From Dehalococcoidia bacterium (lineage in GTDB: Bacteria; Chloroflexota; Dehalococcoidia; Dehalococcoidales; UBA3254): a stretch of DNA of 64,000 nt. The notes under the pieces are model-generated. The model was not told the DNA's origin. It saw nothing but the letters and a program-made list of their open reading frames with translations, and did no database searches. A program made the position numbers and the translations under genes. The DNA lies in assembly GCA_025361145.1 (NCBI GenBank), contig JANYAV010000004.1, positions 62,001 through 126,000 of the forward strand. The letters are read 5' to 3'. Below, one piece after another: positions 25,873 to 49,694 of the stretch. Within the stretch, counting starts at the first letter, position 1. Each line of letters begins with the position of its first letter.

Positions 25873-26314
25873 GTGTAATAGGTGTCATCCTGGAGTCCCG
25901 ATAAAATCGGGACGAAGGATCTCAGGGTTGCGTGGAGGAAACTCGAAGCTGACAACCAAGTTGTCATCCTGGAGTCCCGATAAAATCGGGACGAAGGATC
26001 TCAGGGTGGGGTTCATTAATCATAAATCAATCATTGGGTGCCGAAGCGCGTCGCTAGAAACTGACAACGAAGTTGTCATCCTGAGGCCTGGATGGCTGGC
26101 CGAAGGATCTAGGGCGGGGACTAGTATCTCGCCACTCTTGTCGGTGTCATTCTGGAACTTCGTCGCCTGTACTCATAAATTGAAGCTAGAAACTGACAAC
26201 GAAGTTGTCATCCTGAGGCCTGGATGGCTGGCCGAAGGATCTGGGGCGGGGGACTTGGAAATATTTAGAAATTCGTATTTAATATTTTATATTTAGGTAT
26301 TAGAATTTAATATT
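25873..26314. repeat. Modular dispersed repeats, cluster 2
   Basis: No credible gene; a frame that stays open here just reads through repeats. Two type C copies (25882-25930, 25962-26008) have the core GTCCCGATAAAATCGGGAC between TGTCATCCTGGA and GAAGGATCTCAGGGT. Two type B copies (26068-26130, 26204-26256) have GGCCTGGATGGCTGGCC in the same position. Spacers carry CTGACAACGAAGTTGTCA, which is itself palindromic. Confidence 0.85.
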
Positions 26315-46387: not shown

Positions 46388-47545
46388 TTAACAGGTCTTG
46401 GAGCCAACCTTCTGCGAAATCTGCCATGATTTGCCCTCGGTTGTAATCGAAGGAGCGATCACCATTTCAGTTTTCTGCATATCGGCTATGGTACGTGCTC
46501 CGCAGACTCCCATGCAGGTGCGCAAAGCGCCTACCAGGTTCTGGGTTCCGTCTGTGCGGTGTGAAGGCCCCATCAGGATTTGCTCAAGATTAGATTGAAC
46601 ACCAACCTTGATGCGGGTGCCTCTGGGCAGGGAGGCGTGGGGAGTTGCCATGCCCCAGTGGTAACCATGACCGGGGGCTTCTTCAGCCATAGCGAAGAGC
46701 GAACCTAGCATAACGGCATCGGCGCCAGCCACAATCGCCTTGCAGACATCGCCGCCATTGCGGAAACCGCCGTCGGTAATAATAGGAACATAACGTCCGG
46801 TCTCGCGTCTGTATTCTTCGCGGGCGGCCGCGCAGTCGATAGTGGCTGTAATCTGGGGTACACCGACTCCCAATACCGTTCGTGAAGTGCAGGCAGCGCC
46901 AGGTCCTACGCCAACCAGAATGCCAGACACGCCGGTCTTCATCAGTTCCAGGCAAGCGCTGTAGCTCACGCAGTTACCGACAATTACTGGAATCGGAGAT
47001 GATTTGCACAACTCTGAGAAAATTAAGCCGCGCTGGCTTTTGGAAAGGTGGCGGGCACTGGTGACTGTAGAGGCGACGTCTAGAATATCTGCTCCGGCCT
47101 CATATATGGCTGGAGCGTATTTTTTAGTATTGGCCGGGGTAGTAGCGACGGCGGCAATCCCTCCGCCTTTCTTGATGGCTCTAATCCGGTCGCCAATCAA
47201 TTTTTCTTTGATTGGGGCGGAATAAACTTTTTGCATTAGAGCGGTGACTTCGTCAGGTAGGGCATTAGCGATCTCGTTAAGGACATCTGCTGGATTGTCA
47301 TAACGGGTCTGAACGCCTTCAAGGTTTACCACTGCCAGGCCGCCCAGCTTGCTCATAGCTATGGCGAATTTAACATCAGTCACGCCGTCCATGGCAGATG
47401 CCAGGAAGGGGATGCCAAAGTTGATTTTTCCGATTTTAAAATCTAGTTTAGTCTGGTCCGGATTGACCGTAACATCACCGGGGACTATCGCGACTTCATC
47501 GAATCCGTAGGATTGACGAAGCTGTTTAAACTGTGGGGTAGTCAT
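46388..47545 (-). CDS. guaB3: IMP dehydrogenase GuaB3 family
   Basis: A 385-residue (beta/alpha)8 enzyme of the IMPDH/GMPR superfamily. The catalytic loop [15 protein letters not shown] puts the nucleophile at Cys219. [14 protein letters not shown] and [12 protein letters not shown] bind the phosphate. There is no CBS pair between the barrel halves, so it matches the GuaB3-type (about 380 residues), not canonical GuaB (about 490). AAGGAGAAAATC precedes ATG 47545. It probably acts in IMP to XMP conversion, or in the reverse GMP reductase direction. Confidence 0.9.
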
Positions 47546-47566
47546 ATGATTTTCTCCTTTTAAAGC

Positions 47567-47595
47567 AATATAGCAACATTTTTTTATTGAATCAA
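47567..47595 (-). promoter_or_regulatory. Proximal promoter candidate of guaB3
   Basis: On the minus strand TTGATT (47595-47590), 17 bases, TATATT (47572-47567). This would give a very short 5' leader for guaB3. Confidence 0.45.
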
Positions 47596-47644
47596 TATAC
47601 TAATAGGTTGATCAAATCAGATAATTATATGAAATTATTAACTG

Positions 47645-47671
47645 CAAAAAAAGGGACATTTAAATGCCCTT
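47645..47671 (-). terminator. Intrinsic terminator in the guaB3 upstream region
   Basis: On the minus strand AAGGG-CAT, loop TTAA, ATG with one bulge, CCCTT, then a T tract (seven in all). It begins about 13 bases after the start point expected from the promoter at 47718-47691. Confidence 0.75.
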
Positions 47672-47690
47672 CGGCAAGGTATTAGGAGTT

Positions 47691-47718
47691 ATTATACACC
47701 CTTGGACTAAGATGTCAA
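47691..47718 (-). promoter_or_regulatory. Consensus sigma-70 promoter, minus strand
   Basis: TTGACA (47718-47713), 16 bases, TATAAT (47696-47691): both hexamers are perfect. Transcription would start near 47684 and run toward guaB3. Confidence 0.7.
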
Positions 47719-47778
47719 GAAAAGCTGGTGACTTGCCTAATCAGGCGGTTTTTGGTAGATTTAAGTAGTATTTCATAT

Positions 47779-47869
47779 GGGGCCGTAGTTCACTCGGGAG
47801 AACGTCCCGATTCCATCGGGAAGGTAAGGGGTTCTCCCGTGATTAATAATTAACAGGGTTACCTAGTAT
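47779..47869 (+). repeat. Remodelled tRNA-Ala unit, copy 1 (91 bp)
   Basis: The first 25 bases equal the acceptor 5' strand and D-arm of the tRNA-Ala at 47961. The anticodon arm is replaced base-for-base in length by TCCCGAT-TCC-ATCGGGA (47805-47821). The T-arm and acceptor 3' strand are lost. Instead CGGGAGAAC (47795-47803, old D-arm) pairs perfectly with GTTCTCCCG (47831-47839), enclosing the inner hairpin. A 30-base AT-rich tail completes the 91-base unit. Confidence 0.85.
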
Positions 47870-47960
47870 GGGGCCGTAGTTAACTCGGGAGAACGTCCCG
47901 ATTCCATCGGGAAGGTAAGGGGTTCTCCCGTGATTAATAATTAACAGGGTTATCTAGTAT
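47870..47960 (+). repeat. Remodelled tRNA-Ala unit, copy 2 (91 bp)
   Basis: Tandem copy, exactly 91 bases on from copy 1, with only about two differences (TTAAC for TTCAC in the D-arm, ATCTAG for ACCTAG in the tail). Both paired stems are kept (47886-47894 with 47922-47930, and the inner hairpin at 47896-47912). Confidence 0.85.
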
Positions 47961-48036
47961 GGGGCCGTAGTTCACTCGGGAGAACGTCTGATTTGCATTC
48001 AGAAGGTAAGGGGTTCGAATCCCCTCGGCTCCACCA
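47961..48036 (+). tRNA. tRNA-Ala (anticodon TGC), CCA encoded
   Basis: Complete cloverleaf: acceptor GGGGCCG with CGGCTCC (one G-U), D-arm GTTC/GAAC, anticodon stem TCTGA/TCAGA with loop TTTGCAT (anticodon TGC at 34-36, T33 and A37), T-arm AGGGG/CCCCT with TTCGAAT, discriminator A at 48033 and encoded CCA at 48034-48036. It is the third member of the tandem array and the only intact one. Alanine is the expected identity, though the classical G3-U70 pair is satisfied by the third acceptor pair, which is seen here. Confidence 0.95.
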
Positions 48037-48045
48037 TTTACATTG

Positions 48046-48294
48046 ATGTATTACGTTTACGTTTTACATAGTTCAAAGACTAATCGTTTCTATATCGGTT
48101 CTGCCAAAGACGTCGTTCTCCGGCTGGCCAGACATAACCTCGGTCACAATTCTTCAACTAAAGCTTATCGCCCCTGGATTTTGGTATATTCGGAGCAATT
48201 TAATACTTTGTCTGAAGCAAGACAACGAGAAATGCTTATCAAATCGTGGAAAAACCCTCACTATATGCGTGTTATGTTAGACATTAGCCTTTAA
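48046..48294 (+). CDS. Small GIY-YIG nuclease-domain protein
   Basis: An 82-residue single-domain GIY-YIG protein. YYVYVL (GIY position), FYIGSAKDVVLRLARHN (YIG, catalytic Arg) and the late SEARQREMLIKSWKNP (metal-binding Glu) are all in place. ATG 48046 is nine bases after the tRNA CCA and has no ribosome site, so it is probably expressed from the tRNA transcript. The damaged copy at 48412 aligns from the same ATG. Single-domain members of this kind are common and mostly uncharacterised; relatives are UvrC-like or homing-type nucleases. Whether it cuts DNA or RNA is unknown. Confidence 0.88.
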   Translation: MYYVYVLHSSKTNRFYIGSAKDVVLRLARHNLGHNSSTKAYRPWILVYSEQFNTLSEARQREMLIKSWKNPHYMRVMLDISL

Positions 48295-48301
48295 TATTTG
48301 G

Positions 48302-48397
48302 AGAACGTCCCGATTTCATCGGGAAGGTAAGGGGTGCCGACTTCGTAAGGCATTCCGTATGAACGGAGTAAATCGGAATTCGAATCCCCTCGGCTCC
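48302..48397 (+). pseudogene. tRNA-Ala remnant, copy 4
   Basis: Starts with the D-arm end GAGAACG, then the inner hairpin TCCCGAT-TTC-ATCGGGA and AGGTAAGGGG. About 43 foreign bases split the T-arm, after which TTCGAATCCCCT, CGGCTCC and ACCA return. The 5' acceptor strand and most of the D-arm are missing, so it cannot fold as a tRNA. Confidence 0.78.
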
Positions 48398-48411
48398 ACC
48401 AATAAACATAG

Positions 48412-48660
48412 ATGTGTTACTTGTATATTTTACAGTGTGAAAAAAGTGATCGTTTTTACGTCAGGTCAACGAAAGATATAATCCGCTGCCTAACCAAGCA
48501 CAACGCAGGTCATTATCTGTCAACGAAAGCCTACCGACCGTGGAATCTTAAATACTCTGAGGCCTATCCAACTTAGTCCGAAGCAAGACAGAGAGAAACA
48601 AAAATAAAATCCTGGAAGAACCCGGATTACATGCTTGCTTTGTTGGCACTGACTAGATGA
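48412..48660 (+). pseudogene. GIY-YIG gene, second copy with in-frame stop
   Basis: Colinear with the intact gene from its ATG (CYLYIL for YYVYVL, FYVRSTKD for FYIGSAKD, KAYRPWNLKYSE, SEARQRE, SWKNPDYM) and similar in length, but TAG at 48574-48576 replaces a codon before SEARQRE and the YIG triad is YVR. It sits 15 bases after the CCA of the tRNA remnant, the same arrangement as the intact pair, so the tRNA 3' end and the gene were copied together. Confidence 0.85.
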
Positions 48661-48662
48661 TC

Positions 48663-49694
48663 TTACATCTTGTTATTTTCTAGTTTATTTAACCTGGACC
48701 CGATTAATTTTTTATAAACAGATTTGGCACAGATGATGTCCTGGACTGCCAGTCCGGTTGAATCGAAAATGGTTATTTCGTGGTCGTTTTGACGTCCCAC
48801 AACGACGCCATTAATTATTTGACCAATGGTACCAATAATATTTTCAGGCTTAATTATGCCCTGGGAGAGAGGAACATTCACTTCTCCAGAGTGGCAGGCC
48901 TGGTCCATATCGTCAACTATGACCCTTGATTTCTGGGTGAGACTGGACTCAAGCTCTTGTTTGCCCTGAGCATCAGCCCCGATAGCGTTGATATGAGTTC
49001 CAGGCTTAATGTAGTCTTGTTTTATGATTGGTTCCCTTGATGGTGTGGTAGTCATAACGATGTCTGAATCTGATACTTCTTCCAGGCTATTCACTGCGCG
49101 GATATCAGATTTCACCATCCCTTTCATCTCACTAACGTATTCATCTCGGGCTGATTTCTTCACATCATATACTTTTATTTCTTTAATCCAGGGTATGATT
49201 TTACTAATGGCAATAAGTTGCATCTTGGCCTGTGTGCCGGCACCCACAATACCCACTACTGATGAGTCCTTTCTTGCGAGGTATTTCACCGCTACAGCTC
49301 CCGCCGCACCGGTGCGCAATGTAGTGATATAGGTCCCATCCATAATGGCGAGAACCTTACCTGTGGCCGGATCGTTGAGAATTATCGTTGCCTGAACGGT
49401 GGGTAGCCCCCTTTCGTGGTTGCCAGGGTGAACGCTGACCCATTTTATTCCGGCTATCTCATCCACATAAGCCGGCATTGCGCGAAAATCGCCATGGTAG
49501 GATGGGAGGTCCAGATATAATTTAGGCGGCATAATCACCTGATTGAGTGCGGTAAGTTTGAAGCTTAATTCTACGGCGTTTATGGCTTCTTCTATGGTTA
49601 GCAAGTCCCTGACAATTCGCTCAGAAATGATAAGCATATTTGAATCAGCGCCAAGATTATTCGGGGCAACTTTACTTGAAGTTTTCGAATCCAT
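48663..49694 (-). CDS. Ornithine cyclodeaminase/mu-crystallin family protein
   Basis: A 343-residue OCD_Mu_crystall protein. The NAD motif VGIVGAGTQAKMQL, GTYITTLRTGAAGAVA and GADAQGKQEL are characteristic. ATG 49694 has AGGGGA six bases upstream. Family members include ornithine cyclodeaminase, alanine dehydrogenase and ketimine reductases, which cannot be told apart here. It ends two bases from the GIY-YIG pseudogene, on the opposite strand. Confidence 0.87.
   Translation of the reverse strand: MDSKTSSKVAPNNLGADSNMLIISERIVRDLLTIEEAINAVELSFKLTALNQVIMPPKLYLDLPSYHGDFRAMPAYVDEIAGIKWVSVHPGNHERGLPTVQATIILNDPATGKVLAIMDGTYITTLRTGAAGAVAVKYLARKDSSVVGIVGAGTQAKMQLIAISKIIPWIKEIKVYDVKKSARDEYVSEMKGMVKSDIRAVNSLEEVSDSDIVMTTTPSREPIIKQDYIKPGTHINAIGADAQGKQELESSLTQKSRVIVDDMDQACHSGEVNVPLSQGIIKPENIIGTIGQIINGVVVGRQNDHEITIFDSTGLAVQDIICAKSVYKKLIGSRLNKLENNKM

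Follow-up and report, generated by a model that had tools for sequence, protein, structure and literature searches.

Here we describe a locus in the 64-kb stretch of DNA under analysis (hereafter the window) in which copies of a tRNA-Ala gene alternate with copies of a small GIY-YIG nuclease gene and which, judged from comparative sequence analysis, probably belongs to a widespread family of minimal selfish elements, each built from a small GIY-YIG gene and a stretch of tRNA, that would spread in homing fashion and be copied by repair. A small tRNA-linked element, with four tRNA-Ala-derived and two GIY-YIG copies interleaved, had been proposed in a first-pass annotation of this DNA, and the idea proves broadly right with the corrections given below. 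All of the parts could be located on the plus strand between positions 47779 and 48660, namely two degraded tRNA units, an intact tRNA gene, a GIY-YIG gene, a further degraded tRNA copy and a GIY-YIG pseudogene (Table 1).

Table 1. Features of the tRNA-Ala/GIY-YIG locus and its neighbours, in window coordinates.
Feature	Position	Strand	Support or remark
Left neighbour, GuaB3-type IMP dehydrogenase-related, outside the element	46388..47545	-	NCBIfam TIGR01304
Degraded tRNA-Ala unit 1	47779..47869	+	98% identical to unit 2; 86% to tRNA nt 1-56
Palindrome TCCCGATTCCATCGGGA replacing the anticodon arm, unit 1	47805..47821		
Near-palindrome CCCGTGATTAATAATTAACAGGG starting at the T loop, unit 1	47836..47858		Read from sequence
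Degraded tRNA-Ala unit 2	47870..47960	+	Sequence comparison
Palindrome TCCCGATTCCATCGGGA, unit 2	47896..47912		
Same near-palindrome CCCGTGATTAATAATTAACAGGG, unit 2	47927..47949		
Intact tRNA-Ala(UGC), CCA encoded	47961..48036	+	ARAGORN; Rfam tRNA 66.3 bits; cloverleaf fold
Intact small GIY-YIG nuclease gene, 82 aa	48046..48294	+	Pfam PF01541 60.4 bits
Degraded tRNA-Ala copy (copy 4), nt 19-76	48300..48401	+	Alignment score 67.8 vs best of 40 shuffles 22.1
Palindrome TCCCGATTTCATCGGGA replacing the anticodon arm, copy 4	48308..48324		
Hairpin-forming 43-nt insertion, 5' edge of T loop, copy 4	48336..48378		
GIY-YIG pseudogene, one in-frame TAG	48412..48658	+	Pfam 32.8 bits, first 54 codons
Right neighbour, alanine dehydrogenase / ornithine cyclodeaminase family, outside the element	48663..49694	-	NCBIfam TIGR02371

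The intact tRNA-Ala(UGC) is the sole tRNA called by ARAGORN in the window, and its nearest relatives in the 1.7-Mb genome are the other Ala tRNA genes found there, GGC and CGC, so that the window copy is apparently the genome's only UGC copy. As had been annotated, the intact nuclease gene begins nine bases past the tRNA CCA, with an ATG at 48046 and an alternative TTG start at 48043. The pseudogene had been placed 15 bases after its CCA; its first ATG in fact lies 10 bases after this second CCA, and reading through the TAG gives a 52.7-bit HMM match. An Rfam match to RNase P at 48580-48645 (17.2 bits against a gathering score of 100) was rejected as a chance match within coding sequence.

The three degraded tRNA copies have been remodelled in a common way. 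Units 1 and 2, of 91 bp each, are 84-86% identical to nt 1-56 of the intact tRNA; unit 1 retains the 5' side and D arm, its anticodon arm having been replaced and its 3' half lost. Copy 4 is missing its 5' third and keeps the 3' side of the T arm, the 3' acceptor strand and the CCA intact. In all three, the anticodon arm has given way to a perfect-stemmed palindrome, TCCCGATT(C/T)CATCGGGA, and hairpin-forming sequence interrupts the T loop, namely the near-palindrome in units 1 and 2 and the 43-nt insertion in copy 4.

GIY-YIG genes lie beside tRNAs elsewhere too, at many isotypes and in several phyla. We compared 255 de-duplicated small GIY-YIG loci, drawn from the top of a score list rather than at random, from the class to which the window's genome belongs, one class each of Patescibacteria and Bacteroidota, and a few other genomes. 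A tRNA is found within 200 bp on the same strand at 82 of the 255 and on the opposite strand at one (sign test 2e-23, a naive value that ignores relatedness). Same-strand tRNAs accompany 46 of 116 loci in Patescibacteria, 25 of 76 in Bacteroidota and 3 of 11 in the other genomes; the link is weaker in the window's own class (8 of 52). At least 16 isotypes are used, and tRNAs become rare past ~400 bp from the GIY-YIG loci, these distant bins serving as an internal control within each set. On a tree of 251 sequences, tRNA adjacency changes 32 times, compared with at least 61 times in 300 shuffles. The tRNA-linked proteins are mostly of the form VYxLxS...YxG, whereas Rfam found nothing in the 57 kb covering 20 loci of a YIMTN...LYTGVT subfamily in the same set of genomes. 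Furthermore, when 20 loci of the tRNA-linked form were picked for having no close tRNA, 5 adjoined a same-strand tmRNA and 2 lay within 23S rRNA.

Several individual loci illustrate the range of arrangements. Protein similarity led to tandem units of degraded tRNA-Pro and GIY-YIG in a Sphingobacteriales genome (L023), and a GIY-YIG gene in a Phycisphaerales genome (L025) is flanked by degraded tRNA-Pro pieces and an intact tRNA-Pro. Small GIY-YIG genes adjoin tmRNA on the same strand at L132, L115, L147, L152 and L156; among the tmRNA-linked loci, only L115 has the 3' end of the tmRNA duplicated, over a short stretch of 18 nt. GIY-YIG ORFs were also observed inside 23S rRNA in L027 (Halanaerobiales, ~269-499) and in L144 and L165 (Patescibacteria), with no recognised intron around them in the scans made. 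A scan of 400 genomes of the phylum for the exact pattern of palindromic anticodon arm and T arm, which was too strict, returned two matches, one with the full architecture (L067) and one a palindromic partial tRNA without a nuclease (L066). A protein search found no relatives in viral contigs and a plasmid search gave no match, but DNA patterns recovered the arrangement in two viral contigs (L069 and L424), and two unannotated Staphylococcus phage records, one of them a wastewater assembly, match at 38%. In the IMG/VR contig L069, an intact tRNA-Pro and a GIY-YIG gene share positions 87-760 with several palindromic copies of tRNA-Pro; phages may carry the element, or host DNA may make up this end of the contig.

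A second regularity is that part of the adjoining tRNA recurs on the far side of the nuclease, at up to 52 loci; this figure is an upper bound, since a few of these "partial copies", L180 for one, probably represent a different, intact tRNA of that isotype. Which part recurs depends on the side of the whole tRNA: with the whole tRNA upstream it is a 3' part (the window, L067, L182, L196, L266 and L268), and with the whole tRNA downstream a 5' part (L112, L138, L140, L153 and L256). The tRNA 3' end, which the first-pass annotation took to be the insertion or expression site, is not a general site, because most elements in the Patescibacteria sample run from a 5' tRNA fragment through the nuclease to a whole tRNA and because breakpoints favour the D, anticodon and T loops. 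The broader suggestion of a tRNA-linked element withstands the refuting condition set in that annotation, similar pairs being present elsewhere at many isotypes and across several phyla. Hairpins are predicted for the partial tRNA copies. In L231, a palindromic partial tRNA-Ala copy (1721-1796) is called tRNA-Phe by ARAGORN; degraded tRNA copies near such nucleases can be mistaken for functional tRNAs and so pollute annotation. Separately, different contigs (L064, L298 and L299) of a same-family genome (G002) carry 3' fragments of tRNA-Ala, at least three in all, with no GIY-YIG seen beside them; these fragments are possibly contig ends or integration scars.

The strongest single item of evidence is an orthologous empty site at a Bacteroidota tRNA-Arg(UCU), the sole empty/occupied pair found. 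In genome G702 (L365), an upstream gene is followed directly by the tRNA and then by a downstream gene with no insert, whereas G573 (L256) and the 90% identical G602 (L364) have the same genes and tRNA with ~570 bp extra before the tRNA. This extra DNA consists, in order, of a truncated GIY-YIG copy, nt 1-52 of tRNA-Arg with a palindrome in the D loop, and a whole GIY-YIG gene with its 3' end directly against the intact tRNA-Arg. This presence/absence polymorphism is more simply read as an insertion, because part of the tRNA occurs a second time in the extra DNA, although G702 might conceivably have undergone a precise deletion. The comparison with empty sites that the first-pass annotation had called for thus succeeded at this one target; the window locus gave no clean empty site, the orthologous flanks in G001, G002 and G024 having no adjoining tRNA called. 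In G001, of the same genus, inspection of L273 shows the conserved left flank stopping near the equivalent of window position 47723 and giving way, from ~612, to a transposase-like reading frame.

The window copy of the nuclease has the Y4, Y15, G17, R25 and E61 of the GIY-YIG superfamily, columns that are nearly invariant among 83 tRNA-linked sequences, and dN/dS between the G573 and G602 nucleases is 0.07, the mark of purifying selection. This selection, together with the same-strand bias, the hairpins in the partial copies and the choice of stable-RNA neighbours generally (tRNA, tmRNA and 23S rRNA), would also suit a host enzyme of RNA processing or tRNA quality control encoded beside its substrates, with the partial tRNAs acting as processing signals or decoys. 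We regard such a role as unlikely: the isotypes are patchy and variable with several in one genome, pseudogenes and multiple decayed copies occur alongside the orthologous empty site, and the GIY-YIG enzymes known to us are DNA cutters.

On the nuclease tree, tRNA-linked proteins cluster by isotype more than shuffled data do. Across all tRNA-linked sequences the isotype changes 47 times against a minimum of 59 in 300 shuffles, and within Patescibacteria alone 26 times against at least 31. Part of this clustering is vertical inheritance, since four Leu loci share neighbours, an upstream gene being common to all. Other sisters have the same isotype and no common flank (Cys L309/L329, Met L219/L349, Asn L112/L303 and Pro L083/L350), and the window and L067, with sister proteins (support 80) and tRNA-Ala genes in different genomes of one class, likewise have no common flank; flanks were compared over 1-1.5 kb, so that the absence of a shared one is weak evidence. 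Site-specific homing enzymes usually possess a DNA-binding domain. The 82-aa nuclease has no recognisable one, which counts against its being an enzyme of that kind.

The palindromes raise a different question, namely whether they, rather than the nuclease gene, are the true mobile unit, inserted into loops by a hairpin-dependent process with GIY-YIG as the mover. Several observations would fit. Around tRNA-linked nucleases that have partial copies, GC-rich palindromes reach ~10x background within 100 bp, at 0.37 per locus upstream and 0.21 downstream against ~0.03, and in several phyla palindromes occupy loops of the partial tRNA copies. Among 53 insertions of at least 10 nt in partial copies, 32 touch the D, anticodon or T loop where 18.5 are expected (p about 1e-4 under uniform placement), and 22 are significantly palindromic (p <= 0.02 each, uncorrected); the loop bias of these insertions also counts in favour of the nuclease element. 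A single 20-mer, CCTGCCTGCCGGCAGGCAGG, lies within the D loop or at its edge in both Patescibacteria (L102, L120, L153 (one change)) and Bacteroidota (L227, L256).

Nevertheless, movement of the palindromes by GIY-YIG is rather improbable, and tRNA remodelling is not peculiar to the nuclease: CCTGCCTGCCGGCAGGCAGG occurs 40 times in viral contigs with a single copy near a GIY-YIG gene (L424, in a tRNA D loop), the palindromic partial tRNA of L066 is without a nuclease, and in the window's genome TCCCGA-TCGGGA palindromes also tip repeats of the form TGTCATYCTGGAG...CGAAGRATCT. From the distance of most CCTGCCTGCCGGCAGGCAGG copies to GIY-YIG genes and the presence of TCCCGA-TCGGGA on other repeats, we take the palindromes to be a separate dispersed family; they appear to be separate passengers that gather in loop-coding DNA, with the partial tRNA copies, apparently free of selection, as favoured landing places. 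In the window, palindromes TCCCGATNNNATCGGGA stand at the tip of this dispersed hairpin repeat (TGTCATYCTGGAG-palindrome-CGAAGRATCT) at 25896, 25975 and 63759, and in the viral contig L417 (~2230-2340) CCTGCCTGCCGGCAGGCAGG sits in the variable region of a tRNA-Met-like gene whose other arms are apparently intact.

Ordinary tandem duplication of a tRNA region with a resident GIY-YIG gene, and no element at all, could be argued from the window alone, in which the two 91-bp units and the doubled GIY-YIG are plain tandem repeats, tRNA regions being ready to recombine. This reading is very unlikely, being largely refuted by recurrence across phyla; it leaves unexplained the excess of same-strand tRNAs at one GIY-YIG subfamily and not at another, the far-side partial copy of the same tRNA, and the empty site. 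Most improbable of all is an origin of the partial tRNAs as attachment-site scars left by islands of the integrase type, with GIY-YIG as leftover cargo: such islands classically integrate at tRNA and tmRNA genes and leave 3' fragments as scars, but many of the fragments are 5' parts, the ~570-bp insert of G573 is mainly GIY-YIG and tRNA sequence, and no integrase-like ORF was noted by inspection among those at 46-50.5 kb around the window locus.

How might an element of a GIY-YIG gene and a stretch of tRNA spread? The nuclease most likely cuts its cognate tRNA gene, preferably in a loop-coding part, and repair would then copy the element into the cut gene. The copied segment would bring along whatever part of the tRNA was lacking and so leave one complete tRNA gene on one side and an orphan part on the other. 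We infer, in other words, that the anatomy is the expected product of gap repair, a cut tRNA gene having been mended from an allele with nuclease and part-tRNA, and that the nuclease itself moves the element. The same-strand orientation would follow from homology, and co-orientation would let the nuclease share in transcription of the tRNA. The repeats so formed would permit tandem duplication by recombination, as in the window, while the orphan tRNA copies would decay and gather dispersed palindromes in their loops.

The closest parallel, and a published precedent, is SegB of phages T4 and T6. This free-standing GIY-YIG homing endonuclease is reported to cut inside tRNA genes at the motif RAWTSGAAC, is enriched near tRNAs of many isotypes, and is required through its nuclease activity, along with recombination proteins, for tandem amplification of a tRNA segment (PMC13096335). 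On that account, both it and the window protein are GIY-YIG nucleases in or beside tRNA genes; and, by our own reading, the reverse complement of the motif, GTTCSAWTY, appears to fit the T-arm/T-loop consensus of the window tRNA, GTTCGAATC. The T loop is broken inside or next to GTTCGAATC in the window, L227 and L151. However, SegB is a phage protein of 221 aa, whereas the window gene encodes an 82-aa catalytic domain on a bacterial chromosome, and the partial tRNA copies and loop palindromes are features of the element that we did not find described for SegB in the excerpted text. A single BLASTP comparison with T4 SegB aligned 18 residues only (E 0.009), with no full-length similarity to the SegB family; similarity being minimal, we claim for the element a SegB-like way of working and not an identity with SegB.

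GIY-YIG ORFs have also been described in non-intron insertions in the rRNA genes of Candidate Phyla Radiation bacteria, mostly at the tops or bases of stem-loops, by authors who view GIY-YIG outside a homing context (PMC11270868). Those insertions and the tRNA-linked elements both place GIY-YIG in genes for stable RNAs, and do so in the same kinds of bacteria; they probably belong to the same phenomenon, although the excerpted account concerns rRNA only and neither mentions tRNA nor describes flanking partial copies. With the GIY-YIG enzymes of group I introns (I-TevI type), the element has the catalytic core and a probable homing-type spread in common; unlike them, it has no separate DNA-binding domain and no match to group I intron families in 47500-48700 at E up to 1, and the tRNA would be restored by the copied segment rather than by splicing. 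The palindromes, for their part, resemble the double-hairpin or repetitive hairpin elements of mitochondria in being short hairpins; mobility has been proposed for those elements, some of which lack the target duplications that DNA transposition leaves, and no endonuclease is mentioned for them (PMC2800124), whereas the palindromes described here are bacterial and enriched in the loops of partial tRNAs.

Perhaps these loci are all chromosomal parasites of one cross-phylum class that consist of a single small GIY-YIG nuclease, lodge in the hairpin-loop-coding parts of tRNA, tmRNA and rRNA genes, divide into isotype-specialised lineages and are linked to loop-seeking palindromes; we offer this wider picture as a tentative and rather doubtful extension. 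Free-standing nucleases of the homing type are a known kind; what looks new is their tRNA-nested form in bacteria, with its partial tRNA copies and loop palindromes. No description of a tRNA-linked bacterial GIY-YIG family was found in the open-access literature. If the reading of the window locus as a member of a selfish element family is true, it would help to explain the abundance of small GIY-YIG genes in uncultured bacteria and would provide a bacterial-chromosome counterpart of phage SegB. The elements may then be among the smallest selfish elements known, entering essential tRNA genes without killing their host.
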